Below, piece after piece: positions 974 through 27,390 of a stretch of 64,000 nt of DNA. This DNA comes from Methanosarcina horonobensis HB-1 = JCM 15518. GTDB lineage: Archaea; Halobacteriota; Methanosarcinia; Methanosarcinales; Methanosarcinaceae. How positions within the stretch are numbered: the stretch's first letter is position 1; each line of letters begins with the position of its first letter. The position numbers were made by a program, and so were the translations under genes. Under the pieces are notes generated by a model, which was not told where the DNA came from, did not search any database, and saw only the letters and a list, made by a program, of their open reading frames with translations. The DNA is taken from NCBI RefSeq assembly GCF_000970285.1, contig NZ_CP009516.1, positions 4,691,036-4,755,035 on the forward strand, read 5' to 3'.

Positions 974-1591
974 TTATTCTGTGCATCCGCCGCACAGCAG
1001 CTCATTATCATGTTGAATGAACATTTCACCGCATTTTTTGCAGCACTGTATCCGCTTTTTCTTGCGGACCGGAACTTCCAGGTCCACAGGTTTCCAGGAG
1101 TACACTTTTTCCCCGGCTTCCAGGAGAACGGGCACAACCTCTTCATGAGGGAGCTTTTCAGTGTTCAGGTACCAGGCGTGGAGTTTGGGATAGTCCTTTG
1201 TCTTCTCAGGATCAAGGTAGATCCTGATACCTTTTATGCCGTGCACTTCTTCAGGCGCCTGTTTGTTTATCGTGACCGCCATCTTCCCCAGGTTACTGAT
1301 CTTTAACCCGTTGTTTCCGATGGTAGCTCCGGCAAGAATCTGGAAGGGGTCAGGCATGCAGCTTTTCGTTTCGCAGGTCACGTATATGCGCTCCCCGTCC
1401 CGGACATCGAGCTCTCTTCTTGCAATATTGAGCATCTGAATGCCGATTAATGCCCCGGAGGTCAGGAAGCCGTGAAAGGGGACGACCTTTTCGATCTGTG
1501 AAAGAAGCTCAGGGTCCTTTATCTGCTTCAGGATTGCCTCCATGTTGCGTTTCTCTTGGTCTGAATTTTTATGCAATGTGTACACCGCCAT
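974..1591 (-). CDS. fwdE: FmdE-family protein, formylmethanofuran dehydrogenase subunit E
   Basis: The N-terminal two thirds match the FmdE family (HGFLTSGALIGIQML near the start, then a CETKSCMPD segment). The C-terminus is a small zinc-ribbon-like unit with CCKKCGEMF and LLCGGC pairs. In methanogens this protein is encoded with the formylmethanofuran dehydrogenase subunits; its biochemical role is not settled. An in-frame GTG exists at 1600, but it lies inside a perfect inverted repeat and lacks a Shine-Dalgarno. The ATG at 1591 has GGTGA about 8 nt upstream and is preferred. A shorter form starting at 1543 is possible. It is the first gene of the operon continuing into fwdF. Two ModE-like inverted repeats precede it. 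Confidence 0.85.
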   Translation of the reverse strand: MAVYTLHKNSDQEKRNMEAILKQIKDPELLSQIEKVVPFHGFLTSGALIGIQMLNIARRELDVRDGERIYVTCETKSCMPDPFQILAGATIGNNGLKISNLGKMAVTINKQAPEEVHGIKGIRIYLDPEKTKDYPKLHAWYLNTEKLPHEEVVPVLLEAGEKVYSWKPVDLEVPVRKKKRIQCCKKCGEMFIQHDNELLCGGCTE

Positions 1592-1594
1592 GGG

Positions 1595-1630
1595 TTTCAC
1601 CGTTATGTTTATTTAAACATAACGGTGAAA
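1595..1630. promoter_or_regulatory. Perfect 17-bp inverted repeat over the fwdE start: candidate ModE operator, proximal
   Basis: Arms 1595-1611 and 1614-1630 are perfect reverse complements separated by TT. The core reads GTTATGTT, N6, AACATAAC at 1602-1623. It covers the GGTGA Shine-Dalgarno of fwdE, so it could act as DNA operator, as RNA hairpin, or both. The core resembles the CGTTAT...ATAACG half-sites known for bacterial ModE. Binding is inferred, not shown. Confidence 0.65.
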
Positions 1631-1681
1631 ATATTGAGTACAGACAGGGTGAATTTAAGACAGCCAGGTTATTTGGAGGAA

Positions 1682-1708
1682 TTTATATTATGTAAATTCC
1701 AACATAAC
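1682..1708 (-). promoter_or_regulatory. fwd promoter: TATA-like box overlapped by a second ModE-like inverted repeat
   Basis: On the minus strand a TATA-like AATATAAA lies at about 1682-1690, about 95 bp before the fwdE start. It overlaps ATTATGTA, N6, AACATAAC (1687-1708), which has the same half-site and 6-bp spacer as the repeat at 1602-1623. The two centres are 85 bp apart. The start point of transcription is inferred to be near 1660. Confidence 0.5.
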
Positions 1709-2559
1709 GCAGAAGGATACACTGTATTTATAGGTAACTTTCTAACAGAAACTTATCTCATTTGTAGTATGATTCAGAGGGATTCAGGGGTGAGATTTAA
1801 TGTAGGGGACAGAAACCCTCTTGGCCGGGCATAGAAAAGAAACACCAGCCAGAACTCTACAGCTTCCAGATATGTAAAGCTCAACATATCTATAAAAAAC
1901 GGAAGACAGGTCTTTTGCGCTCAAAATATATAAACAGGTATTTTATAAAATTATCGATCAAAAAGGGATTTTCCTTCAAGAGAAATGTTGTTTCTTAATT
2001 AGTTGAAATTCTAATTGTTCATAATCCAACAGCTTCGTTAACGTCTTCTTCCTTATAGCAGTGCCTTACTCGTAACAATACCTAATTTCTGCGCAAGTAA
2101 TGTTTTGTGCAAGTAGTTTCTTTTTTAAATTTCCTTTTCCAGAACTACTATAGAAGTTTAGCTCTTGATTGGACAAAAATTTGGTGAATTATGGATTCGT
2201 CATTTTTTTTAGATTTATTACGACCTTAATAATATAAACGCTAAATATAAAATTAACTATATATAAAACTGAAAAATAAGTAAACAGATAATATGAAAAA
2301 TCTGGTATCGAATATTCAAAATTAAGTAGCGTCAACCATCCATCATAAATAACAACAACTCTGGATATGAAGGCACTTACGTATAATTCATTCCATTTTT
2401 GATCAGAACATTTAGATAACAAATATAGTTAATTTATTATCATTTTGTAATTAATACAAAATGAATATTCCGAGTTAATATTACTAAAAAAAATAGTTAA
2501 TTATAGTTAGTAACACAAAATAGAAAATTATTAATCATAAAATGAATAAGTACTGGTTG
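1709..2559. other. AT-rich intergenic region between divergent fwd and methyltransferase-ABC operons
   Basis: No convincing gene. A 77-codon minus-strand frame at 2189-2422 contains a hydrophobic stretch, but base composition is as AT-rich as the surrounding spacer and no Shine-Dalgarno precedes it, so it is not called. The promoter of the methyltransferase-ABC operon should lie in the last 150 bp, which are very AT-rich; no single TATA box stands out. Confidence 0.5.
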
Positions 2560-3327
2560 ATGTCTTCTTCAGAACTCCAGATTAAAGAGATGGTAGCCCA
2601 TAAATGGGATCTTGCATCCGAGACTTTTGATACTCACGTCGGACATGGTATCCGGAGTAAAAAAGAAAGAGATGCCTGGAAACGTACTTTCCTGGAGGTT
2701 TTTCCGGAAAAGGGTTTGAAAATCCTTGATGTCGGCTGCGGAACAGGAGAGTTAAGCCTACTGTTTGCTGAGATGGGGCATGAGGTCTCAGGGATCGACA
2801 TTTCCAGACAAATGCTAAAAATAGCAAAAGCGAAGGCTGAAGCCTGTGGAGCTGACATAAACTTTGGGGAGGGAGATGCGGAAAACCCTCCTTTTGATAC
2901 ATCTTCTTTTGACATTGTATTCAGCCGCCACCTCCTCTGGACCCTGCCAGATCCGAAAACAGCCGTGGAGAACTGGAAGAGGATCCTGCGGAAGAATGGG
3001 AAGATTGTGATTATCGACGGGGTGTGGGACAGCAAGTCCCTGGAGTCCAGAGTACGCAGAAATGCGGGTGCCCTTTTGACCCTGCTCCTTGAAAGAAAAG
3101 ACCCCCGAAAAGGACACGCCGGGTATTCCGACGAACTCAAATCCCGGCTCCCTCATGCCGGAGGGGCTCCGCTTGAAAAAGTAAAGGAGTACCTTTCGAG
3201 TACGGGTTTTGAAAAGATCCAGGTTTTTGACCTGAAAGAAGTAAGAGAAGCCCAGAAAGAGAACATGCCGTTAGGCGAACGGATCGTACGCAGTTATCAG
3301 TACTATCTCATCTGCGGCCGGAAGTAA
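2560..3327 (+). CDS. Class I SAM-dependent methyltransferase, first of two paralogues flanking an ABC importer
   Basis: Rossmann-fold methyltransferase. SAM-binding motif I is ILDVGCGTGELSLLFAEMGH, the acidic residue of motif II is in GIDIS, and there is a characteristic FSRHLLWTLPDP segment. About 255 residues. The in-frame ATG at 2542 is possible. The ATG at 2560 is chosen because MSSSELQIKEMVAHKWD then aligns without gaps with the N-terminus of the paralogue at 8625. Neither start has a good Shine-Dalgarno. The gene ends 43 bp before the binding-protein gene and opens the cluster. Substrate unknown: the close link to an importer suggests it methylates the imported compound, a carrier for it, or a product made from it. 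Ubiquinone/menaquinone methyltransferase-like domain labels should not be taken as function here. Confidence 0.85.
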   Translation: MSSSELQIKEMVAHKWDLASETFDTHVGHGIRSKKERDAWKRTFLEVFPEKGLKILDVGCGTGELSLLFAEMGHEVSGIDISRQMLKIAKAKAEACGADINFGEGDAENPPFDTSSFDIVFSRHLLWTLPDPKTAVENWKRILRKNGKIVIIDGVWDSKSLESRVRRNAGALLTLLLERKDPRKGHAGYSDELKSRLPHAGGAPLEKVKEYLSSTGFEKIQVFDLKEVREAQKENMPLGERIVRSYQYYLICGRK

Positions 3328-3370
3328 AATTTATAAAAAACACTTATAAAAAACAGACGGAGGTTCCGAA

Positions 3371-5023
3371 ATGAAAAATAAAAGCTCCCCCCTGCTGATA
3401 TTGTTAATTATCCTGCTGACCTGCGCCATCCTGGTGACTTCCGGGTGCAGCAGTACAAAAGAAAGCGAAGCAAAAGAAGCGATCTCCGGGCTGGAAGTAA
3501 CCTCAGGATCAGAGGCTGCCTCTCAGCCGGAAGGAGGCTCTGAAGCTGACTCTGAAGCTAGCACACTTGTACTTGGAGAGATGTGGGAAATAGACTCTGT
3601 CGATACTATTAATGGAGGTGCCGGCACCCTGATCTGTGAGAAGGCCGCAGTGACAGAAACCCTTGTTGGCGCAAATGAAGACTTCTCCCTGAAACCCGGA
3701 CTTGCAACCTCCTGGGAGCAACTTGATGAAAATACCTGGGAGTTCAGGCTAAGAGATAACGTTGTCTTCCATGATGGGAGCAGGATGACTGCAGAAGAAG
3801 TAAAGTTCACGCTGGAAAAAGTCATTGAAGCAAACTCGAAAGTCGCTTCCATGCTCAAGGTCGATACTATCGAGGCAGTCGACAATTATACCCTCAAAAT
3901 CAAAACCACGGAAATCAACCCAATCCTTCCCGGAATCCTCCATTACCCGGATACTGCCATAATAAGCCCTTCTTCTTTTGACGCAGCCGGAGAGTTCGTA
4001 AAGCCTGTTGGGACAGGGCCGTATAAATTTGAATCTTTTGATGAGCGGACCAGGGTCCTGACAGTCGTTAAAAATGAAAACTGGTGGGGAGGAGAAGTCG
4101 GGCTTGACAGGATGGTCCTTAGAGGGATACCTGATCCGAACACAAGAGCAATGGCAATCGAAAATGGAGAGGTAGACTTTACAGTCGATGTGCCTTACAG
4201 TGAAACGGATAGAATTGACGCTATAGATGGTATTAATGTAGAGAAGTACAGGACTCCAAGGGTTTACAAACTCGATATAAACCTGAAACATGAGCCTCTT
4301 GAAGACGTCAGGGTCAGGCAGGCGATGTCCTATGCCATTGATAGGTATGGAATCGTGGAACATGTACTCTACAACGTAGGAGAAGCTGCTGCAGGTCCCT
4401 TCCTTCCAACAATGGTCTGGGCAAATCAGAGCCTGAGCCCTTACACCAGGGACCTGGAAAAAGCCGATGAACTCCTGACAGCCGCAGGCTGGGTAGACAC
4501 CGACGGGGACGGGATAAGGGATAGAGACGGAAAAACCCTCAAGCTCAACCTGATGACCTATTCCGCAAGACCAGGCCTCCCTCCAATGGCTGAAGCCATG
4601 GCTGCCCAGTTAAAGGAGGCAGGTATAGATGTAGAGACAGAGGTAATGGAAATGGGGTCAATTGATGACAGAAGGGAAAAAGGCAACTGGGACCTTTACC
4701 TTGCCGCTTACAACATTGCAATGGTTCCAGACCCCGAATATATTCTCACAAACTGGTACATAACGGATGGGCCTGACAACGGACCCGGGTACTCCAATCC
4801 GGAAGTAGACGCCCTGATAAAGGAAGCCAGACAGATCACTGACCTGGGAGAGCGTTATAAAAAATTCAATGATGTAGAAGCTATTGTGTATGAAGAACAG
4901 CCAATGATCATTGTGGCTTACTACGGCTGCGCAATTGTAAAGAAGGACTATGTAAAAGGCTATGTTTTCGACCCGACAGCGCACGACTATCGCATAAATG
5001 CAGAGATGTATCTCGAGAAATAA
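3371..5023 (+). CDS. Extracellular solute-binding lipoprotein of a peptide/nickel-type ABC importer (SBP family 5)
   Basis: 550 residues. The N-terminal hydrophobic segment ends in the lipobox VTSGC, so the mature protein is probably lipid-anchored at the outer face of the membrane. A Ser/Glu/Ala-rich linker of about 35 residues follows. The body is a family 5 binding protein (DppA/OppA/NikA): FRLRDNVVFHDGSRMTAEEVKFTLE, VGTGPYKFESFD, VRQAMSYAIDR and YSNPEVDALI are hallmark segments. Shine-Dalgarno GGAGGT precedes the ATG by about 7 nt. The family binds peptides, nickel chelates, opine metallophores or other small molecules, and the ligand cannot be read from sequence. Two methyltransferase genes in the same operon make a chelate or modified metabolite more attractive than plain peptides; that is inference. 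Confidence 0.88.
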   Translation: MKNKSSPLLILLIILLTCAILVTSGCSSTKESEAKEAISGLEVTSGSEAASQPEGGSEADSEASTLVLGEMWEIDSVDTINGGAGTLICEKAAVTETLVGANEDFSLKPGLATSWEQLDENTWEFRLRDNVVFHDGSRMTAEEVKFTLEKVIEANSKVASMLKVDTIEAVDNYTLKIKTTEINPILPGILHYPDTAIISPSSFDAAGEFVKPVGTGPYKFESFDERTRVLTVVKNENWWGGEVGLDRMVLRGIPDPNTRAMAIENGEVDFTVDVPYSETDRIDAIDGINVEKYRTPRVYKLDINLKHEPLEDVRVRQAMSYAIDRYGIVEHVLYNVGEAAAGPFLPTMVWANQSLSPYTRDLEKADELLTAAGWVDTDGDGIRDRDGKTLKLNLMTYSARPGLPPMAEAMAAQLKEAGIDVETEVMEMGSIDDRREKGNWDLYLAAYNIAMVPDPEYILTNWYITDGPDNGPGYSNPEVDALIKEARQITDLGERYKKFNDVEAIVYEEQPMIIVAYYGCAIVKKDYVKGYVFDPTAHDYRINAEMYLEK

Positions 5024-5136
5024 AAAGAAAGGAGGCTCGAAAGGGTACGGGTTCCGGACCTGTACCTGAGTTTCCTTCCACTCAAAGTAAAATGGAAAGA
5101 ATGGGGTTTTGCTCTCTGTTCACATAAGGAGGAAGC

Positions 5137-6078
5137 ATGAAATATTTCTTGAAAAGGGCAGGTTTCATGATACTTACGCTTTTTGCAGCCTGTGCTCTGA
5201 CCTTTTTCCTGATGAACGTGATTCCTGGGGGCACGGCTGAGCTGATCATCAAGCATACCTTCGTGGGGCTGGAGGAGAGCGTAACCGAAGAACAGATTAA
5301 CCAGGTCTCAAGCCGGTACAACCTTGATGACCCTCTTTATCTGCAATTCTTCATGTGGGTAAAAGAAGCCGTATTGAGAGGAGACATTGGAACTTCCTAT
5401 GTCTTTAAGAAACCGGTCCTTTACCTCCTAACTTTGCGTCTGCCGGCAACGGTCCAGCTTGCAGGGGCAAGTATGGGGCTTTCAGTGGTTGCGGGAGTAA
5501 GCCTGGGAATTTATTCTGCCCTCCGGGAAAACCGGATTTCGGACCACGTCCTCAGGGTTATAACGCTTTTTGGAGTTTCGATGCCCGGTTTCTGGGTAGC
5601 CCTGCTCCTTATCCTGGTATTTTCCCTGAAACTGAAACTTGTTCCTGTATCAGGGTACGGGAACCTGGAAAACCTGTTTTTGCCCGCAGCAGCCCTTTCC
5701 CTCCATTCCGCTGCTGCGATTATGAGAGTCACCAGGACAAGCATGCTTGAAACTCTGGGACAGGAGTATATCAGGTTTGCAAAAGCCAAAGGGCTGCCTG
5801 TATGGAAAATCATGAGCCGGCACGCCCTTAAAAATGCCATGCTCCCTGTCATCACGGTGATCGGTTTTCAGATGGGAAGCCTGCTTGGGGGAGCGGTTGT
5901 AATTGAAAAAATCTTTGCCTGGCCGGGAATAGGAAGCCTGCTTGTTGACTCGATTTCTGCCAGGGACCTGCCCATGGTGCAGGGCTGTGTGCTTGCCATT
6001 GTTACGATGTTTCTCCTTGTGCATTTCCTTGTGGATATGCTCTATACGCATCTTGACCCACGGATAAGGTACGGCTGA
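5137..6078 (+). CDS. ABC importer permease, DppB/NikB type
   Basis: 313-residue inner-membrane permease. The DppB-type N-terminus has a first membrane helix followed by an extracytoplasmic loop (VIPGGTAE). The coupling-helix EAA region is near LGQEYIRFAKAKGLPVWKIMSRHALKNAMLPV. The conserved C-terminal segment is EKIFAWPGIGSLLVDSI. Shine-Dalgarno AAGGAGGAAG lies just before the ATG. The 113-bp gap to the binding-protein gene is the largest in the operon. Pairs with the next permease to form the channel. Confidence 0.9.
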   Translation: MKYFLKRAGFMILTLFAACALTFFLMNVIPGGTAELIIKHTFVGLEESVTEEQINQVSSRYNLDDPLYLQFFMWVKEAVLRGDIGTSYVFKKPVLYLLTLRLPATVQLAGASMGLSVVAGVSLGIYSALRENRISDHVLRVITLFGVSMPGFWVALLLILVFSLKLKLVPVSGYGNLENLFLPAAALSLHSAAAIMRVTRTSMLETLGQEYIRFAKAKGLPVWKIMSRHALKNAMLPVITVIGFQMGSLLGGAVVIEKIFAWPGIGSLLVDSISARDLPMVQGCVLAIVTMFLLVHFLVDMLYTHLDPRIRYG

Positions 6079-6082
6079 TATT

Positions 6083-6988
6083 ATGGATAATGCATTTGCT
6101 GATAGGTTAAGAAAAAAAAGCTTTTTGCTGCTGGACGCTTACGGAAGCGAATTTGTAAAAAGAGTATTTCAAAGAAAAGATATGCTTTTTGCACTGGCAG
6201 CACTTCTGGTTTTTATCGGGATTGCCCTTTTTGCTCCCCTGATTTCTCCTTACGACCCCAATGCCATTGACCTGAAGAATAAGAACCTGAGCCCGTCAGG
6301 AGAGCATCTCCTGGGTACTGATTATCTCGGGAGGGACCTTTTTAGCAGGATCTTAATTGGAGCCTGGACTTCTCTTTCCATTGCCTCGGGGGTTGTGCTT
6401 ACTTCCCTGTTTCTGGGAACTGCCGCGGGATGTGCAGCAGGCTATTATGGAGGGTTTGCGGACGAAAGTATCTCAAGGATTATAGACATTTTTCTCTCTT
6501 TTCCTGGCATCATCTTTGCCCTCACCATTATGGGGGTACTTGGGAGCGGGGTTTTCAACCTGATGCTTGCCCTTTCTATTGTCCACTGGGCAAAGTATGC
6601 AAGAATGATGCGGGGACAGGTCCTTTCCGTCAAAAAACAGGAGTTTATCCTTTCCGCCATAACAGGAGGAGCCGGAGATTTTCATATAATCCGCAAACAT
6701 ATCGTGCCCAATACAATCGCTCCTCTTCTCGTACTTGCTACAATCGACTTCGGGCATGTAATCCTCTCAATTGCCACACTGAGTTTTCTCGGAATAGGGC
6801 TGCCTGCCGATGTCCCGGAATGGGGTGCCATGCTTTCCGCAGGAAAGGAGTTTATGAGGACAGCCCCTTACCAGACGGTCTTTCCTGGGCTTGCCATAAC
6901 CGTTATTGTGGTTATTTTCAGCATTCTGGGAGACGGTATGAGAGATATCCTTGACCCGAACCGTGAAGGAGGAGAAATCTATTCATGA
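6083..6988 (+). CDS. ABC importer permease, DppC/NikC type
   Basis: 301 residues. A cytoplasmic N-terminal tail is followed by a first helix, then the DppC hallmark PYDPNAIDLKNKNLSPSGEH and LLGTDYLGRDLFSRIL. Further helices follow. The EAA loop is around LSVKKQEFILSAITGGAGDF, and the C-terminus has GDGMRDILDPN as usual for the family. It starts 4 bp after the DppB-type permease, so the two are translated together. Forms the heterodimeric transmembrane channel. Confidence 0.9.
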   Translation: MDNAFADRLRKKSFLLLDAYGSEFVKRVFQRKDMLFALAALLVFIGIALFAPLISPYDPNAIDLKNKNLSPSGEHLLGTDYLGRDLFSRILIGAWTSLSIASGVVLTSLFLGTAAGCAAGYYGGFADESISRIIDIFLSFPGIIFALTIMGVLGSGVFNLMLALSIVHWAKYARMMRGQVLSVKKQEFILSAITGGAGDFHIIRKHIVPNTIAPLLVLATIDFGHVILSIATLSFLGIGLPADVPEWGAMLSAGKEFMRTAPYQTVFPGLAITVIVVIFSILGDGMRDILDPNREGGEIYS

Positions 6989-7006
6989 AGGAGGGGAAAT
7001 CTATTG
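6964..7006. repeat. Tandem 20-bp duplication that supplies the ribosome-binding site of the next gene
   Basis: The segment GAAGGAGGAGAAATCTATT at the 3' end of the DppC-type gene is repeated with one substitution right after it. The first copy encodes the last residues of the permease. The second contains the GAAGGAGGGG Shine-Dalgarno and the TTG start of the ATPase gene at 7004. Confidence 0.8.
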
Positions 7007-7945
7007 AGCCTGCTTGAAATAAGAGACCTTTCCATAGAATTTCCTTCAGGAGAGAACACGGTAAAAGCCGTTTCTGATGTCTCTTTCGATGTAAGGGAAG
7101 GGGAGGTCTTCGGGATTATAGGAGAAAGCGGGTCAGGGAAATCAGTTATCGGACTTGCCCTGCTCAGGCTCCTGCCTGCAAATGCAACGGTTTCGGGAAC
7201 AGCCTTTTTTCAGGGACAGGACCTTTTTTCCCTTAAACCCTCAGAGCTCCGGAAAATCCGGGGAAAACGGATCTCGCTTATGCCCCAGAATCCGGCTGGC
7301 GCCCTTAACCCTGTCCTGAAAAACGGGCTTCAAATGGAGGAAGTGTTCGAAGGGAACGGGAAGGAAAAAAAGGAAGGAATGAAAAAAGCTCTGAAACTGA
7401 TGAAACAGCTCTTTTTGAAAGATCCAGAAAGACTTTGCGGCCTTTATCCTCACCAGTTATCCGGAGGCATGAGGCAACGGTTGATCGCCTGCATGTCTCT
7501 CTCTTTTGAGCCCGAACTTTTGATTGCGGATGAACCTACAAAAGGGCTGGACCCTGAGGCAAAGACAGGAGCTATCGAGCTTTTCACCAAAATAAAAAAA
7601 GAGTACGGGAAGACAATGCTCCTGATTACTCACGACCTTGACCTGGCTCTTGAAGTCTGCGATCGCATAGCCGTGATGTATGCAGGAGAGATTGTGGAGC
7701 TGGATAAGGCTTCAAAAGTCCTGAGCACACCCCTTCACCCGTATACAAAAGGGCTTGTCCGGGCTCAGCCAAGAAACGGGCTTGTCCCCATGAGCGGACA
7801 GAGCCCAAGCAGGATAAGTCTTCCAGACGGCTGTTTTTTTCATGAGAGGTGCAGGTACTCGGGTATTGAATGCTCCAGAAAACACCCTGAAATGAAAAAC
7901 CATAAAGGAGGCGGAGTAAGGTGCCACTTCCAGTCCTTACAATAA
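7004..7945 (+). CDS. ABC importer ATPase, DppD/NikD type
   Basis: 313-residue nucleotide-binding subunit. Walker A GESGSGKS, Q-loop LMPQNPAGALNP, signature LSGGMRQR, Walker B LLIADEPTKGLD and switch histidine in ITHDL. The C-terminal oligopeptide-transporter extension contains a Cys-bearing CFFHERCRYSGIECSRKHP segment, which in this family can bind a 4Fe-4S cluster or metal. TTG start with strong Shine-Dalgarno 7 nt upstream. Overlaps the next ATPase gene by 25 bp. Confidence 0.9.
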   Translation: MSLLEIRDLSIEFPSGENTVKAVSDVSFDVREGEVFGIIGESGSGKSVIGLALLRLLPANATVSGTAFFQGQDLFSLKPSELRKIRGKRISLMPQNPAGALNPVLKNGLQMEEVFEGNGKEKKEGMKKALKLMKQLFLKDPERLCGLYPHQLSGGMRQRLIACMSLSFEPELLIADEPTKGLDPEAKTGAIELFTKIKKEYGKTMLLITHDLDLALEVCDRIAVMYAGEIVELDKASKVLSTPLHPYTKGLVRAQPRNGLVPMSGQSPSRISLPDGCFFHERCRYSGIECSRKHPEMKNHKGGGVRCHFQSLQ

Positions 7946-8628
7946 ACGGACTGGCAATGAGCTTCGGGGCTTCGGAGGTACTCAAAAACGTCAGTTTTTC
8001 AGTAGCGCCGGGGGAGACCATGGGGCTTTTCGGAAAAAGCGGGTCAGGAAAAACTACAATTGGAAGGTGCATCGTGTGGCTTGAAAAACCTACGGGAGGG
8101 GAAATCCTGGTTCATGGAATGGATATCCTGAGCATGAGAAAAAAGGAGTTTCGGAAACTGCGCCCGAAAATCCAGATGATTTTCCAGCACCCGGAAACCT
8201 CCCTTGATCCTCGCATGAAAGCTTTTGAGAACCTTATAGAGCCATTGAAACTTCATTCCGGGCTCAAAAAAGATGCCCTCCTTAAGCGAGGAGAAGAACT
8301 GGCAAAACTCACAGGATTGCGCCCGGAACACCTTGCCCGCTATCCGGGCCAGCTCAGCGGAGGGGAAATTCAGAGGATAGTGCTTGCCAGGATTATGGCT
8401 TTGTCCCCGGACTTTATCGTTGCTGACGAGCCTACTTCCATGCTTGATGTTTCAGTCCAGGCCCAGATCCTGCATCTTATGCAGAAACTCCAGAGGGAAA
8501 CAGGGGTCTCCTACCTGCTGATTTCCCACGACCTTGAGGTGTTAAGGAAAATTTGCCACAGGATTGCCTATCTTGAAAACGGGACCATTACCTCAATTGA
8601 AAACATAAACAGAGGCATTAGAATATGA
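7921..8628 (+). CDS. ABC importer ATPase, DppF/NikE type
   Basis: 235 residues. Walker A GKSGSGKT, Q-loop MIFQHPETSLDP, signature LSGGEIQR, Walker B FIVADEPTSMLD, switch ISHDL. It is shorter than many DppF proteins because it lacks the C-terminal oligopeptide extension; NikE-type proteins are similarly short. GTG start at 7921 with AAGGAGGCGGA upstream, inside the preceding ATPase gene. Its stop overlaps the start of the second methyltransferase gene (ATGA), which ties the methyltransferase to the transporter. Confidence 0.9.
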   Translation: MPLPVLTINGLAMSFGASEVLKNVSFSVAPGETMGLFGKSGSGKTTIGRCIVWLEKPTGGEILVHGMDILSMRKKEFRKLRPKIQMIFQHPETSLDPRMKAFENLIEPLKLHSGLKKDALLKRGEELAKLTGLRPEHLARYPGQLSGGEIQRIVLARIMALSPDFIVADEPTSMLDVSVQAQILHLMQKLQRETGVSYLLISHDLEVLRKICHRIAYLENGTITSIENINRGIRI

Positions 8629-9386
8629 CCATTCAGGAAAACCAGATCAAACAAAATATTGCTCGCGTATGGGACATCTCGTCCGAGACCTACGACAGCC
8701 ATGAAGGACATGGGATCCAGAGTGAAACCGAAAAGGAAGCCTGGAAAAATGTTTTTAAAAGCCTGCTCCCTCCAGGCAGGCTGAAGGTACTTGACGTCGG
8801 CTGCGGGACCTGCGAAATCGGGTTGCTGTTTGCTGAAATGGGGCACCATGTTACAGGCCTTGACCTTTCGGAAAAGATGCTTGCAAAAGCCAGGGAAAAA
8901 GCTTCCAGAAGAGGATTTGACAGTACTTTCAAAAAAGGGGATGCCGAAGCTCCTCCTTTTGAGGCAGAGACATTCGACATCATTGTCAATCGCCACCTGC
9001 TCTGGACCCTTCCGCACCCCGACACCGCGGTCCGGAACTGGAAAAAGATGCTCAGGGAAGGAGGAAAGCTTATTGTTGTTGATGGAGTCTGGAATGATGG
9101 TTCACTGGAAACAAATGCAAGGAGGCTTGTAAGTGATTGTTGCACCTTACTTGTTGAGAGAAGGAACCCCAGAAAAGGACATTACTCCAGAGAGATAGAC
9201 AGCGAACTTCCCAACCGGCACGGGGTCCCACCTGAAAAGATGCTTGAATATTTCAGGGCTGCCGGATTCAAAAGTATAAAGGATCTGGATCTGAAAGAAA
9301 TCATGGAACTTCAGAAAAAGGAGATGCCTTTCCGGAAGCGGATAGCTTATAATTACAATTATCATTTGATCTGCGGAGAAAAATAA
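8625..9386 (+). CDS. Class I SAM-dependent methyltransferase, second paralogue in the ABC operon
   Basis: 253 residues. Motif I is VLDVGCGTCEIGLLFAEMGH, with Cys in place of the usual Gly after GT, followed by GLDLSEKML and the shared VNRHLLWTLPHPDTAV segment. It is alignable over its whole length with the methyltransferase at 2560, so the two genes arose by duplication and now flank the transporter. ATGA overlap with the upstream ATPase gene indicates translational coupling. Substrate unknown. The conserved DGVWND and RKGHYS regions, shared by both copies, are likely substrate-specific features of the subfamily. Confidence 0.85.
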   Translation: MTIQENQIKQNIARVWDISSETYDSHEGHGIQSETEKEAWKNVFKSLLPPGRLKVLDVGCGTCEIGLLFAEMGHHVTGLDLSEKMLAKAREKASRRGFDSTFKKGDAEAPPFEAETFDIIVNRHLLWTLPHPDTAVRNWKKMLREGGKLIVVDGVWNDGSLETNARRLVSDCCTLLVERRNPRKGHYSREIDSELPNRHGVPPEKMLEYFRAAGFKSIKDLDLKEIMELQKKEMPFRKRIAYNYNYHLICGEK

Positions 9387-9683: not shown

Positions 9684-10064
9684 TCAATGGTTATTTCTCC
9701 ATTGATTATAATTTGTTTCCCATTTCCTGTGATTACTTTCCCATTTGTTGTGCTTGCTGAACCAACTATTATATTTATTTAGCCAGATATTGTAGTTATT
9801 TAACCAGATATCATAATCGTTTCCTTTTTTGTTCTTATCCCACTTCTTTTTCTCTTCCTCCCACTTCTTCCTTTCCTTATCCCAGGTATTCTTCTCATTG
9901 TCCCATGTCTTTTTCTCTGAATCCCATTTTTCCTTTTCCTGGTTCCATTTACCGGCATCATTTGACTCTGCACTTACTGACGCAGCTGTCACTGACATTA
10001 CAAAAAAGATCAGTGTAAACATACACATGATCTTTTTTGTTTTGTCAAATGTTTGTTTCCCCAT
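9684..10064 (-). CDS. Secreted tryptophan-heptad repeat protein, copy 1 (6+6 heptads)
   Basis: 126 residues. The signal peptide (KKIMCMFTLIFFVMSVTAASVSA) is followed by twelve tryptophans. Six lie in an acidic/basic half with units such as WDSEKKT and WEEEKKK. An 11-residue linker with a glycine follows (DKNKKGNDYDI). Six more lie in a second half with units such as WLNNYNI and WETNYNQ. Within each half, Trp occurs exactly every seventh residue. This predicts two long amphipathic helices, each with a Trp stripe, packed as a hairpin. No known family is recognised. Shine-Dalgarno GGGAG precedes the ATG. Paralogues are at 11506 and 12042. Confidence 0.75.
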   Translation of the reverse strand: MGKQTFDKTKKIMCMFTLIFFVMSVTAASVSAESNDAGKWNQEKEKWDSEKKTWDNEKNTWDKERKKWEEEKKKWDKNKKGNDYDIWLNNYNIWLNKYNSWFSKHNKWESNHRKWETNYNQWRNNH

Positions 10065-11505: not shown

Positions 11506-11811
11506 TCAGTTCTCACGGCTATTTTTCCATTTGTTATAATTGGTTTCCCAGACCTTATATTTGCTCAACCACTTATTGTAGTTATATAGCCATTCATTAT
11601 AACCATTGTCAAGGTTCGTATTTTTGCTCCAGTTTTTTTTCTCTTCTTCCCAATTTTTCTTCTCTTCAGCCCACTTAGTTTTCTCTTCATCCCATTTCTT
11701 CGTATTATTTGGCTCTGCATTTACTGGCGCAATTGTTACTGATATTACAAGACAGACTAGAGTGAAAACACACAGAATTCTTTTCGCTCTGCCAAACATT
11801 TGTTTTCCCAT
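11506..11811 (-). CDS. Secreted tryptophan-heptad repeat protein, copy 2 (4+4 heptads)
   Basis: 101 residues, same plan as the proteins at 9684 and 12042. The signal peptide is RILCVFTLVCLVISVTIAPVNA. Four Trp heptads of the charged type follow (WDEEKTK, WAEEKKN, WEEEKKN), then a 12-residue linker containing glycine (SKNTNLDNGYNE), then four Trp heptads of the polar/aromatic type (WLYNYNK, WLSKYKV, WETNYNK). Shortest of the three, with both halves reduced equally. Shine-Dalgarno AGGAG lies upstream of the ATG. Lies between the pilin fragment and copy 3. Function unknown; exported. Confidence 0.72.
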   Translation of the reverse strand: MGKQMFGRAKRILCVFTLVCLVISVTIAPVNAEPNNTKKWDEEKTKWAEEKKNWEEEKKNWSKNTNLDNGYNEWLYNYNKWLSKYKVWETNYNKWKNSREN

Positions 11812-12041: not shown

Positions 12042-12383
12042 TTACTGGCTATTTTTCCATTCATTGTAATTTGTCTCCCACTTCTTGTGGTTGGCTTCCC
12101 AAATCTTATGTTTGCTTAGCCACTTGTTATAATCGCATAACCAACTCTTATAATCACTGCCAGTTTTATCTTTCTTTTCCCACTTCTTCTTTTCTTCTTC
12201 CCATTTCTTCTTCTCTTTTTCCCACTTAGTTTTTTCTTTGTCCCAGTTTGCCTTTTCTTCATTCCATTTTTTAGCATCATTCGACTGCGCACTTGCTGAC
12301 GCAGCTGTCAATGACATCACGAAAAAGACCAGAGTAAACATACACAGGATCTTTTTCATTCTGTCAAATATTTGTTTTTCCAT
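12042..12383 (-). CDS. Secreted tryptophan-heptad repeat protein, copy 3 (5+5 heptads)
   Basis: 113 residues. The signal peptide is KKILCMFTLVFFVMSLTAASASA. Five charged Trp heptads follow (WNEEKAN, WDKEKTK, WEKEKKK, WEEEKKK, then a fifth Trp), then a 12-residue linker with glycine (EKKDKTGSDYKS), then five polar heptads (WLCDYNK, WLSKHKI, WEANHKK, WETNYNE, final W). One Cys lies in the first unit of the second half. Leader AGGAGTATAAAG before the ATG is shared with the other two copies. Upstream lie region X and an intact pilin gene. Confidence 0.75.
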   Translation of the reverse strand: MEKQIFDRMKKILCMFTLVFFVMSLTAASASAQSNDAKKWNEEKANWDKEKTKWEKEKKKWEEEKKKWEKKDKTGSDYKSWLCDYNKWLSKHKIWEANHKKWETNYNEWKNSQ

Positions 12384-23611: not shown

Positions 23612-24199
23612 TCAGTCTGAGAGATCAGACTTTTTTGAACTGGAACTTTCAGACTCTTTCTCACCGACAGCTATTGCGACCATTACTTCAGTGGATTTTA
23701 TGACTGCATAAACCCGGTCTCCGGGTTTGATGTCAAGCTTTTCTACTGCCTCTTCCGTAACTACGGAGGTCAGTACTGAAGGTTCGATCTCAATGGTGAG
23801 CTTCGAGACAAGCCCGCTTTTTTCGACTTCAATTACTTTTCCGGGAAGCTTGTTTCGGGCCGAAAGCTTAAAACTTACGTTTTCCCAGGAGGTTTCGTCC
23901 CCTACGGCTTCATTAATCACCTTTTTATTTGTCTCGTACTCGACCAGCAGTTTTCTTCCGAGCTCGGTCAGGAAAGTGCCCTGCTCCTTTCCCCCACGCA
24001 CAGTAACTACCGCAGGCTCGCCGAGGGCATCGTTCATTTTTTTAAGCATCATCCAGGCATGCTTGTATGAGATTCCGAGTTTCTGGCAGGCTTTCCGAAG
24101 GGAGCGTTCTTCGTCAATCGTTTTCAATAACTCGGCTCTGCCAGCACCCATAACTGTTTTTCCATCTTCGGTAAACCAGAGCTTTGTTTTCGCTTTCAC
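23612..24199 (-). CDS. modE: ModE-type molybdate/tungstate-responsive regulator with one Mop (TOBE) domain
   Basis: 195 residues. The N-terminal winged helix of the ModE/LysR-like type contains GAGRAELLKTIDEERSLRKA, LGISYKHAWMMLKKMND and GGKEQGTFLTELGRKLL. The C-terminal single Mop domain (about residues 112-180) has SARNKLPGKVIEVEKSGLVS, VTSVVTEEAVEKL-like and DRVYAVIKSTEVMVAI segments, which bind molybdate or tungstate. E. coli ModE has two Mop domains; a single copy is common in archaea. Last gene of wtpA-wtpB-wtpC-modE, 13 bp after wtpC. The inverted repeat before wtpA suggests autoregulation, and the matching repeats before fwdE suggest control of the Mo/W enzyme. Confidence 0.88.
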   Translation of the reverse strand: MKAKTKLWFTEDGKTVMGAGRAELLKTIDEERSLRKACQKLGISYKHAWMMLKKMNDALGEPAVVTVRGGKEQGTFLTELGRKLLVEYETNKKVINEAVGDETSWENVSFKLSARNKLPGKVIEVEKSGLVSKLTIEIEPSVLTSVVTEEAVEKLDIKPGDRVYAVIKSTEVMVAIAVGEKESESSSSKKSDLSD

Positions 24200-24212: not shown

Positions 24213-25259
24213 TTAACGGAGAATATGGACAGAACTTGCTTTAAACTGGGCATATACAGGGACTCCCGGAGAGATATTCATATCTTCTGCCGATTGCCGG
24301 GTTATAAGGGCATTCAGGTGGATCCCGCAATCAATCTTTACCCGTACAAGAGCTCCAAGTATCCAGACTTCCGTGACCCTGCCCTGCAGAGAGTTTCTGA
24401 TGCTGGATTGTGCGGAAGTTTTACTTAAAGCTATGTTTTCAGGTCTCAGGAAGGCGTATACTGCATCTCCCACTTCTGCCTCACCTGAAGCATCAAAAAA
24501 TGTCTCTCCGGCTTCTATCTTTAGAAGTCCGCGATCAGCAGAAATAACCCTGCCTTTCAGCACATTCTCAAATCCTACAAAGCTTGCTACCTGACTGTTA
24601 ACCGGTTTTTCGAAGATTTCTTCCGGAGTCCCAACCTGCACAAGTTTTCCATCCATTATAATTGCAATCCTATCAGCCATTATGCGGGCCTCGGTTTGAT
24701 CATGCGTTATATGCAATACAGTAAGCCTTTTATTTTTGTGAAGATCTGAAAGTAGTTCTCTTGCACTTTCCTGCGTTCTGGGATCAAGTGCGCTAAGAGG
24801 CTCGTCCAGAAGTAGAATTTTAGGGTCGGTAACAAGAGCTCTGGCAAGGGCAACTCTCTGCTGTTCACCTCCTGAAAGCGTAAGAGGATAGCGATCAAGA
24901 AGATGAGTGATTTTCAGGTCTCTGGAAACTTCAGAGAGTTTCTCCCTTGACTTTATTTTCTTCATTCGCATTCCAAACTCAATATTCTTTTTCACACTCA
25001 TGTGAGGAAAGAGAGAATAATCCTGGTAGACAAAGGCAAGTTTATGTTTTTCCGGAGGCTGGTAGGTTACCTCTTCACCGTCAATCAATATTCTTCCGGA
25101 ATCAGGAGAATGAAAGCCCGCTATCAGTTCCAAAAGAAGAGTTTTTCCTGCACCCGTAGGTCCAAGGATCACAAAGTATTCCCCTGACTCAATTTTAAGA
25201 CTGAGGCTGTCGAGAGCAAAGTTTTTCCATTTCCGGGAGAGGAATTCAATCTCTATCAT
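24213..25259 (-). CDS. wtpC: Tungstate/molybdate ABC importer, ATPase
   Basis: 348 residues. Walker A GPTGAGKT, Q-loop VYQDYSLFPHMSV, signature LSGGEQQR, Walker B ILLLDEPLSALDP and switch ITHDQTEA. The C-terminal TOBE-like regulatory domain is at about residues 270-345 (LQGRVTEVWILGALVRVKID), as in ModC/WtpC proteins. It overlaps the permease gene by 14 bp. Drives uptake of the oxyanions needed for molybdopterin enzymes such as formylmethanofuran dehydrogenase. Confidence 0.92.
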   Translation of the reverse strand: MIEIEFLSRKWKNFALDSLSLKIESGEYFVILGPTGAGKTLLLELIAGFHSPDSGRILIDGEEVTYQPPEKHKLAFVYQDYSLFPHMSVKKNIEFGMRMKKIKSREKLSEVSRDLKITHLLDRYPLTLSGGEQQRVALARALVTDPKILLLDEPLSALDPRTQESARELLSDLHKNKRLTVLHITHDQTEARIMADRIAIIMDGKLVQVGTPEEIFEKPVNSQVASFVGFENVLKGRVISADRGLLKIEAGETFFDASGEAEVGDAVYAFLRPENIALSKTSAQSSIRNSLQGRVTEVWILGALVRVKIDCGIHLNALITRQSAEDMNISPGVPVYAQFKASSVHILR

Positions 25260-26064
25260 ATATACTCCAGCTTGCGGAGAGAATTCTTATAATAAGAAAT
25301 ATCGAAAGCGTGACCAGTATGAGCAGTACGGCTATGGGTCTGGATGCCGAAAGCCCGTAAGAAATAAAACGGTCATAGATAAGAGTGGGACCTATCATAG
25401 GATAGTAGGCGATAATCACAACCGCTCCGAATTCACTTATAGCTCTGGCCCAGGTCATGACCGAACCTATTAAGAGATGCCTTGCTGAAAGCGGGAGGGT
25501 TATAAAGAAAAATACTTTCCATAGGGGGGCACCCAGAGAACGGGCTGCGTTTTCAAGCCTCGGATCCACACTTTTGAAGCCTTCCCTTGCAGAATTTGCC
25601 AGGTATGGAAGGGATACGAAAAGCATTGCAACTACAATTCCAGGAAGAGCGTCACGGAACTGAATATAGGGCTCAAGAGGACCGCCAATAAGCCCCCTTG
25701 ATCCAAAAACCGTAAGAAGAGCGATTCCTGCAACCGTGTGCGGGACTACAACAGGAACATCAATTATACTCTCAACCAGCCTTTTCCCGGGAAAATCGAA
25801 CCTTGCAAGGATGTAGCCTGCAGGAGCTCCGAGGAACAGAGACAGCAGGGTTGCAAGAAAACCAGCATATAAAGAAAATAATATAGCGGCCATTACCGAG
25901 CGGTTTCCTGCAGCTTTCACCAAACCTGGAAAATCTTCCAGAATTTGGCCGAAAATCATGTTTGAAAGGGTCAGAAAAATAAAAAGAAAGAGAACAAGCA
26001 GTAAGAGGGAAAAGACGAAAGTCAGAGGCTCAATTCTAAGGGTTTTTCGGGTAATGGCTTTCAT
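25246..26064 (-). CDS. wtpB: Tungstate/molybdate ABC importer, permease
   Basis: 272 residues with about six membrane helices. ModB/WtpB hallmarks are SLFLGAPAGYILARFDFPGK, VVPHTVAGIALLTVFGSRG and the coupling region SARSLGAPLWKVFFFITLPLS-like (here NAARSLGAPLWKVFFFITLP). The homodimer forms the channel. Ends overlapping wtpC; 117 bp separate it from wtpA. Confidence 0.92.
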   Translation of the reverse strand: MKAITRKTLRIEPLTFVFSLLLLVLFLFIFLTLSNMIFGQILEDFPGLVKAAGNRSVMAAILFSLYAGFLATLLSLFLGAPAGYILARFDFPGKRLVESIIDVPVVVPHTVAGIALLTVFGSRGLIGGPLEPYIQFRDALPGIVVAMLFVSLPYLANSAREGFKSVDPRLENAARSLGAPLWKVFFFITLPLSARHLLIGSVMTWARAISEFGAVVIIAYYPMIGPTLIYDRFISYGLSASRPIAVLLILVTLSIFLIIRILSASWSIYDRD

Positions 26065-26181: not shown

Positions 26182-27285
<1,104 letters not shown>

Positions 27286-27326
27286 TTATTTCTATCTTGA
27301 AAATTCACTTTTTGCTTTTTTTAATA

Positions 27327-27358
27327 GTTATGTGGTCTTTAACATAACAGATATAAAT
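27327..27358 (-). promoter_or_regulatory. wtp promoter with ModE-like operator next to the TATA box
   Basis: GTTATGTG, N6, AACATAAC at 27327-27348 has the same half-sites and spacer as the two repeats before fwdE. Directly upstream for minus-strand transcription is ATTTATAT at about 27351-27358, a good archaeal TATA box. The repeat would lie between the TATA box and the inferred start point, so bound protein would block initiation. Confidence 0.65.
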
Positions 27359-27390
27359 CTTTTTAGTAAAACTTTTGAATTTTCACATTA

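Follow-up and report, generated by a model that had tools for sequence, protein, structure and literature searches.

The analysed DNA (hereafter the window) is a 64,000-nucleotide stretch of the Methanosarcina horonobensis HB-1 genome. It contains a formylmethanofuran dehydrogenase operon that opens with fmdE and also comprises F, A, D-type and B genes (C was not identified). The original prediction named this operon fwd, but its gene content fits the Mo-type fmd1 operon, fmdE1F1A1C1D1B1, which is called molybdenum-type in PMC2838876. According to that paper, transcript levels on methanol exceed those on acetate 14-fold for fmd1 and 15-fold for fwd1; in 2010 it described the control of fmd1 and fwd1 by Mo or W as still under study; the start-site mapping given there does not include fmdE. 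The true start codon of fmdE is probably the ATG at 1591-1589 or the GTG at 1585-1583. Adjoining the fmd promoter, inspection by eye identified a peptide/nickel-type ABC transporter operon between two similar methyltransferase-like genes (window 2542-9386). Three related minus-strand genes (9684-10064, 11506-11811 and 12042-12383) encode small secreted-looking proteins with Trp/Lys/Glu-rich repeats, again as judged by eye.

A ModE homologue is encoded in the same window, as had been anticipated, where it forms the last gene of a wtpABC operon (see table). Its arrangement of an N-terminal winged helix followed by a Mop domain is that of E. coli ModE (1o7l, 1b9m), but the two tandem Mop domains of the E. 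coli protein were not found, the window's protein having one Mop/TOBE domain. The Mop domain model (TIGR00638) scores 63.8 bits, above its cut-off of 55, and the ModE helix-turn-helix model (TIGR00637) matches with an E-value of 2.9e-17 and 62.5 bits, against a curated cut-off of 98.5. In the predicted structure the winged helix is confident (residue 21-80 blocks at 87 or above) and the rest poor, with a mean pLDDT of 64.7. The best PDB fold matches found by Foldseek are the same E. coli ModE structures (E ~1e-10), with a whole-chain TM-score to E. coli ModE of only ~0.44, and A. tumefaciens ModE (2ijl) matches too. No second full-length ModE was seen in the genome among the matches listed: of three further matches, the single one listed is confined to the Mop domain, and the remaining two scored lower than the rows listed.

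The ModBC transporter of M. acetivorans is controlled by oxyanion binding. The WtpC protein encoded beside modE is the counterpart of the ModC subunit in the ModBC structure (PDB 3d31); that structure concerns the transporter itself, whereas the present case concerns the control of genes.

Features of the fmd and wtpABC-modE operons in the window (operators, Shine-Dalgarno-like sequence and TATA boxes are predicted; coordinates refer to the window)
Feature	Position	Strand	Description
fmdE, first gene of the Mo-type formylmethanofuran dehydrogenase operon	974..1600	-	Pfam FmdE 1.6e-32
Shine-Dalgarno-like GGTGA of fmdE	1597..1601	-	predicted from sequence
Operator 1	1601..1624	.	CGTTATGTTTATTTAAACATAACG; adjoins the Shine-Dalgarno-like GGTGA of fmdE; within the 17+17 palindrome
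Operator 2	1686..1709	.	CGTTATGTTGGAATTTACATAATA on the minus strand; centre near the predicted transcription start
Conserved TATA box CTATAAATA	1725..1733	-	TATAAA begins 23 bp before operator 2; start site predicted
Operator 3	1868..1891	.	AGATATGTTGAGCTTTACATATCT on the minus strand; ~135 bp upstream of the TATA box
modE	23612..24199	-	ModE-type winged helix and one Mop/TOBE domain (residues 111-175)
wtpC/modC ATPase	24213..25259	-	counterpart of M. acetivorans ModC of PDB 3d31, E 1e-185
wtpB/modB permease	25246..26064	-	NCBIfam WtpB 1.3e-88, under the curated cut-off
wtpA, tungstate/molybdate-binding protein	26182..27285	-	NCBIfam WtpA 7.2e-146
wtpA operator	27326..27349	.	TGTTATGTTAAAGACCACATAACT on the minus strand
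wtpA TATA-like box	27350..27359	-	immediately upstream of the wtpA operator

Inverted repeats upstream of fmdE

Direct reading of the window sequence places two inverted repeats before fmdE, GTTATGTTTATTTAAACATAAC at 1602-1623 and ATTATGTAAATTCCAACATAAC at 1687-1708, exactly where the original prediction put them and with their centres 85 bp apart. The perfect 17+17 palindrome described around the first repeat is also present (1595-1630, with a 2-bp spacer). It is the longest in the window, where the runner-up has arms of 12 bp, and 12 is also the longest arm obtained in 30 dinucleotide shuffles of the window. A window scan for TTATGT-N8-ACATAA with at most two mismatches returned 14 matches against 3.4 expected, a number reached in none of 100 shuffles. 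Motif scanning of the window also revealed two previously unlisted copies, one further upstream of fmdE (1868-1891) and one before wtpA (27326-27349). We refer to the three copies before fmdE as operators 1 to 3.

The placement of the repeats relative to promoter elements differs in part from what had been proposed. The first repeat was said to cover the Shine-Dalgarno sequence of fmdE; the extended palindrome does span GGTGA (1601-1597), but the conserved 24-bp core (1601-1624) shares one base with it. The second repeat had also been placed over the TATA box; this was dropped, as the conserved CTATAAATA (minus strand, 1733-1725) sits upstream of operator 2, at a distance of 23 bp and without overlap.

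To describe conservation within the genus we used 27 of 30 fmdE loci returned for Methanosarcina, leaving out a broken gene (L100) and two distant FmdE-domain paralogues (L101, L102). The fmdE copies that lie outside this set include G027:C527, G004 at 2910122, G029 at 3463906, G028 at 948488 and fragments in G013 and G003, among others. Operator 1, defined by at least 14 of the 16 specified bases of CGTTATGT-N8-ACATAACG, starts 23-26 bp ahead of one and the same codon in 22 of the 27 loci and was not found at that threshold in the other five. Seventeen loci have operator 2 with no more than one core mismatch, and 18 have a counterpart of operator 3. The distance from TATAAA to operator 2, which is scorable only for loci with an exact TATAAA (the remaining loci gave no value), is 23 bp in 10 of the 27 loci and 26 bp in one; the script scored G003 and G005 on the first of two TATAAA boxes (35 and 37) and paired G002 and G021 with another site. 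Two of the ten loci with the 23-bp distance (G012 and G025b) have a leader that is ~120 bp longer.

Of the 17 loci that have both operator 1 and operator 2, 15 space them 79-88 bp apart and the other two 202 or 207 bp apart. A search of other genera, covering the 500 bp upstream of fmdE and allowing at most one core mismatch, added three close fmdE loci of a sister genus (g7) in which this spacing is 118 bp. Operator 2 thus moves together with the promoter, and operator 1 stays with the start codon. The loop of eight helical turns that had been suggested from the 85-bp spacing is unsupported because the spacing varies between loci, and we rejected a loop of fixed helical phase. The 17+17 arms are likewise not a conserved feature, their full length being restricted to the window's genome among the 27 loci compared.

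Similar sites at other promoters and in other genomes

The operator before wtpA is conserved at its own promoter. Among 14 long matches to wtpA with at least 77% identity (a broken copy in G028 and weaker importer proteins were excluded), all 14 loci carry a counterpart, nine with zero and five with one core mismatch. In each of them it lies immediately behind a TATA-like box, a position that would block transcription start, and in several it touches the likely start codon. The arrangement at fwdD is different: in 16 of 17 loci (at least 82% identity) an operator lies 300-750 bp before the gene and immediately upstream, rather than downstream, of a conserved TATA-like box, and in the seventeenth locus it is degenerate. 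This upstream position suggests that ModE could also activate. The 300-750 nt between the operator/TATA module and fwdD contain a conserved block, TTTTTAAAAACAGGGAAAGC, and the stretch is a candidate long leader or small gene.

Across the 5.02-Mb genome, the exact motif TATGT-N8-ACATA occurs 14 times, against four occurrences of the reversed pattern. When TTATGT-N8-ACATAA is allowed two mismatches there is no genome-wide excess (404 versus 429 for the control), so only near-exact sites carry signal. The genome scan with a list of downstream genes that had been proposed as a check bears out the link to metal genes for half of the exact sites: seven of the 14 precede Mo/W genes, three of them before fmdE and one each before wtpA, modA-like, molA-like (we take H. 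influenzae HI_1472 to be MolA) and fwdD genes. The modA-like gene belongs to a second importer and has its site 49 bp upstream (contig position 4678080), the molA-like gene, which encodes a binding protein related to HI_1472 (PDB 3psa, E 2e-26), has its site 52 bp upstream, and the fwdD site lies 637 bp before its gene. Four further exact sites are within or behind coding genes, about the number predicted by the control, and the last three are intergenic sites with no known Mo/W link (2244958, 3797019 and 4147628).

Summed over 30 genomes of the genus, TATGT-N8-ACATA occurs 338 times against 205 for the control, and in seven of the 30 the exact motif is no commoner than the control. In G001, a genus member with a 5.75-Mb genome, 15 of 24 sites, 23 of which were retrieved with their surroundings, precede fmdE, fwdD, modABC, FecCD-/binding-protein-type importer, anf, vnf or nifH genes; four of the other nine are inside genes.

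Several gene neighbourhoods with such sites are described here in their own right. At contig 112500-121000, genes for a binding protein, methyltransferase-like and radical-SAM-like proteins, a FecCD-like permease and an ATPase lie behind a ModE-type operator; this row is a candidate Mo/W importer of a second type, its relation to HI_1472 coming from a search with the binding protein. The intergenic site at 2244958-2244975 is a perfect CGTTATGT-N8-ACATAACG, flanked on one side by a gene that by eye resembles a peptidyl-prolyl isomerase gene and on the other by one for a TrmB-type regulator (Pfam); it is kept at the equivalent place in G001 and perhaps belongs to a small RNA or an unannotated gene. 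An operator-like site at 4147628-4147645 lies ~36 bp ahead of a URO-D/MtaA-type gene that is oriented divergently to the fwd operon, and it has a counterpart at the G001 homologue. The anf and vnf nitrogenase promoters of G001 carry several ModE-type operators together with GGAA-N6-TTCC palindromes, which are presumably like NrpR sites.

A strict 24-mer, CGTTATGTT-N6-AACATAACG, was scanned over 84,980 species genomes and returned 74 stretches, which by record title are 29 archaeal and 45 bacterial. The archaeal records come from Methanosarcina, Methanococcoides, Methanolobus, other Methanosarcinaceae/Methanosarcinales, Methanoperedens, Archaeoglobales and uncultured archaea. In 25 of these 29 the next downstream gene (at most 257 bp away) is modA, wtpA or fmdE, and the ten fmdE cases are all from Methanosarcina. 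Ten of the 45 bacterial stretches have a ModA, WtpA or ModE match within 3 kb. The strict motif is found in 58 of 110 ModE-bearing genomes (best E < 1e-30) versus 3 of 39 others, a difference that is significant overall (Fisher p 2e-7) but confounded with family, so that we place no weight on it; the reversed control motif is found in 3 of 149 genomes. Outside its own family, the strict motif is no commoner in genomes with ModE (4 of 36) than in those without (3 of 38).

The same scan placed the strict 24-mer at the start of a large gene in two Mucilaginibacter records (L217 and L233); in L217 this gene weakly matches a TonB-receptor model, below the cut-off, and it perhaps encodes a ModE-controlled outer-membrane molybdate receptor. 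Two Methanosarcinales records (L223 and L234) have the 24-mer 60 bp before a gene for a protein of 353-355 amino acids, with no Pfam match for the L234 protein, and a deltaproteobacterium (L282) has it 31 bp before the gene for an FmdE-domain protein.

Seven g5 and three g3 genomes have a close fmdE as well as a ModE match, which in two of the g3 genomes contains an in-frame stop; in none of the ten was an operator found within 500 bp upstream of fmdE when up to one core mismatch was allowed. This distribution makes ModE-type control of fmd look like a later recruitment, in Methanosarcina and the sister genus.

A predicted ModE regulon and competing explanations

Taken on its own, the identity of the repeats as ModE operators is a reading that we hold with high confidence. 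We take CGTTATATTGTCGCCTACATAACG, upstream of E. coli modA, to be a ModE operator. When the repeats are compared with this upstream region of E. coli K-12 (NC_000913.3), the CGTTAT-N12-ATAACG frame is present as a 24-bp palindrome. The proposed match to ModE half-sites thus holds for the frame, but the inner half-site differs, being GTT/AAC in the window's sites and ATT/TAC in the E. coli modA operator. The E. coli operator is likewise a 24-bp palindrome, and the oxyanion importer gene behind it starts ~20 bp away. The sites described above also lie at promoters of Mo/W importer genes (all 14 wtpA loci, and the 25 archaeal records with modA, wtpA or fmdE downstream). Unlike E. coli modA, the fmd locus has three copies before a central catabolic operon, in an archaeon with TATA-box promoters.

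Systems of this kind are already known. Studholme and Pau are said to have described ModE elements in Archaea in 2003, as the title of their paper indicates. The modABC genes of Methanosarcinales are stated to be under ModE control in PMC9765008, which cites the 2003 paper and a preprint. Leaving that 2003 paper aside, the parts of the literature covered by our search do not describe ModE control of fmd. Possible novelties are that a central methanogenesis operon has three operators, one of them tied to the start site and one to the ribosome site, and that the layout at fwd contrasts with this.

We consider it likely, on balance, that the sites are operators of the ModE encoded at 23612-24199 and that metal-loaded ModE represses fmd. 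The analysis itself shows the sites, how they are conserved and placed relative to conserved TATA-like boxes, their association with Mo/W genes and the existence of a ModE homologue; that ModE binds them, which metal is its ligand, where transcription starts and that the control is repression and not activation are inferred. ModE would sense molybdate and/or tungstate through its Mop domain, and its dimer would bind the 24-bp palindromes. Under metal sufficiency it would hold down wtpABC-modE, the other Mo/W importers, fmd1 and, where present, the alternative nitrogenases. At fmd1, operator 2 coincides with the predicted transcription start, 23 bp behind the TATA box, and a dimer bound there would keep transcription from starting. 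Operator 1, next to the ribosome-binding site where the leader ends, may provide a second block (a roadblock) or raise local ModE occupancy, and operator 3, further upstream, may contribute extra occupancy.

An opposite sign of control, with ModE bound to the same operators and activating fmd1 when Mo is present from operator 3 as the activating site, appears unlikely to us. It would suit the location of operator 3 upstream of the TATA box, where 18 of the 27 loci have a counterpart, and E. coli ModE is annotated as a dual regulator. Molybdate moreover induces the Mo isoenzyme in Methanobacterium wolfei and M. thermoautotrophicum (cited in PMC2838876), and on that basis one would not at first expect Mo to repress a Mo-type operon. 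Operator 2 nevertheless keeps a fixed position relative to the TATA box, which it follows, and operator 1 relative to the start codon, which it precedes; such positions fit blocking better than activation. A digester metaproteome also speaks for repression: Methanosarcinaceae Fmd protein went up when Co, Mo, Ni, Mn and W fell and the iron supply was cut (PMC5859356), as derepression would predict. The account given there does not name the isoenzyme, and its authors favour a switch of pathway as the explanation.

Two further explanations dispense with ModE. The palindrome at 1595-1630 could form an RNA hairpin that hides the ribosome-binding site, as its perfect 17+17 arms span GGTGA in the window's genome and two variants are changed on both sides of the innermost pair of the 24-mer (11-14). 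The comparative evidence makes this very improbable. The full arms occur in one of the 27 loci, and across 13 distinct variants of operator 1 none of the pairs from 1-24 to 10-15 has a two-sided change that preserves pairing; pair 2-23 is broken in five variants and pair 11-14 forms in only six. The same motif also occurs in other operons, at their promoters and ahead of their TATA-like boxes, and no Rfam family was found here at gathering thresholds, a tRNA being the sole Rfam match in the window. Another regulator of Mo/W genes could instead bind the sites, for example a Tfx-type activator. Tfx is an archaeal regulator linked to fmd in Methanothermobacter, which recommends this idea. It is scarcely credible in this organism, however, since a search for the TFX_C domain (PF14601) found no Tfx homologue in the genome while returning matches in 2 of 14 control genomes. 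The motif, moreover, agrees with the E. coli ModE operator, and the importer operon that bears it also encodes ModE.

Repression of fmd1 by metal-loaded ModE remains our preferred reading. A broader scheme, which we put forward only tentatively and regard as doubtful, is that the ModE-oxyanion complex sets the choice between Mo and W isoenzymes at the C1 end of methanogenesis by acting with opposite signs, repressing Mo-type fmd1 and activating W-type fwd1. The two-level block of fmd1, exerted from the operators at the start site and next to the ribosome site, would act on initiation and on elongation or translation, and activation of fwd1 would proceed from the operator directly upstream of its TATA-like box. 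This wiring would have arisen in Methanosarcina and the sister genus after their split from other ModE-bearing methanogens.

The conserved operators offer a testable answer to the question, raised in 2010, of whether molybdate or tungstate controls fmd and fwd, the two main formylmethanofuran dehydrogenase operons of Methanosarcina (PMC2838876). If ModE acts at these sites as proposed, metal uptake, alternative nitrogenases and the C1 end of methanogenesis would be joined in one predicted regulon. Trace-metal supply in digesters and sediments would then be linked directly to transcription of a central enzyme of the methane pathway.
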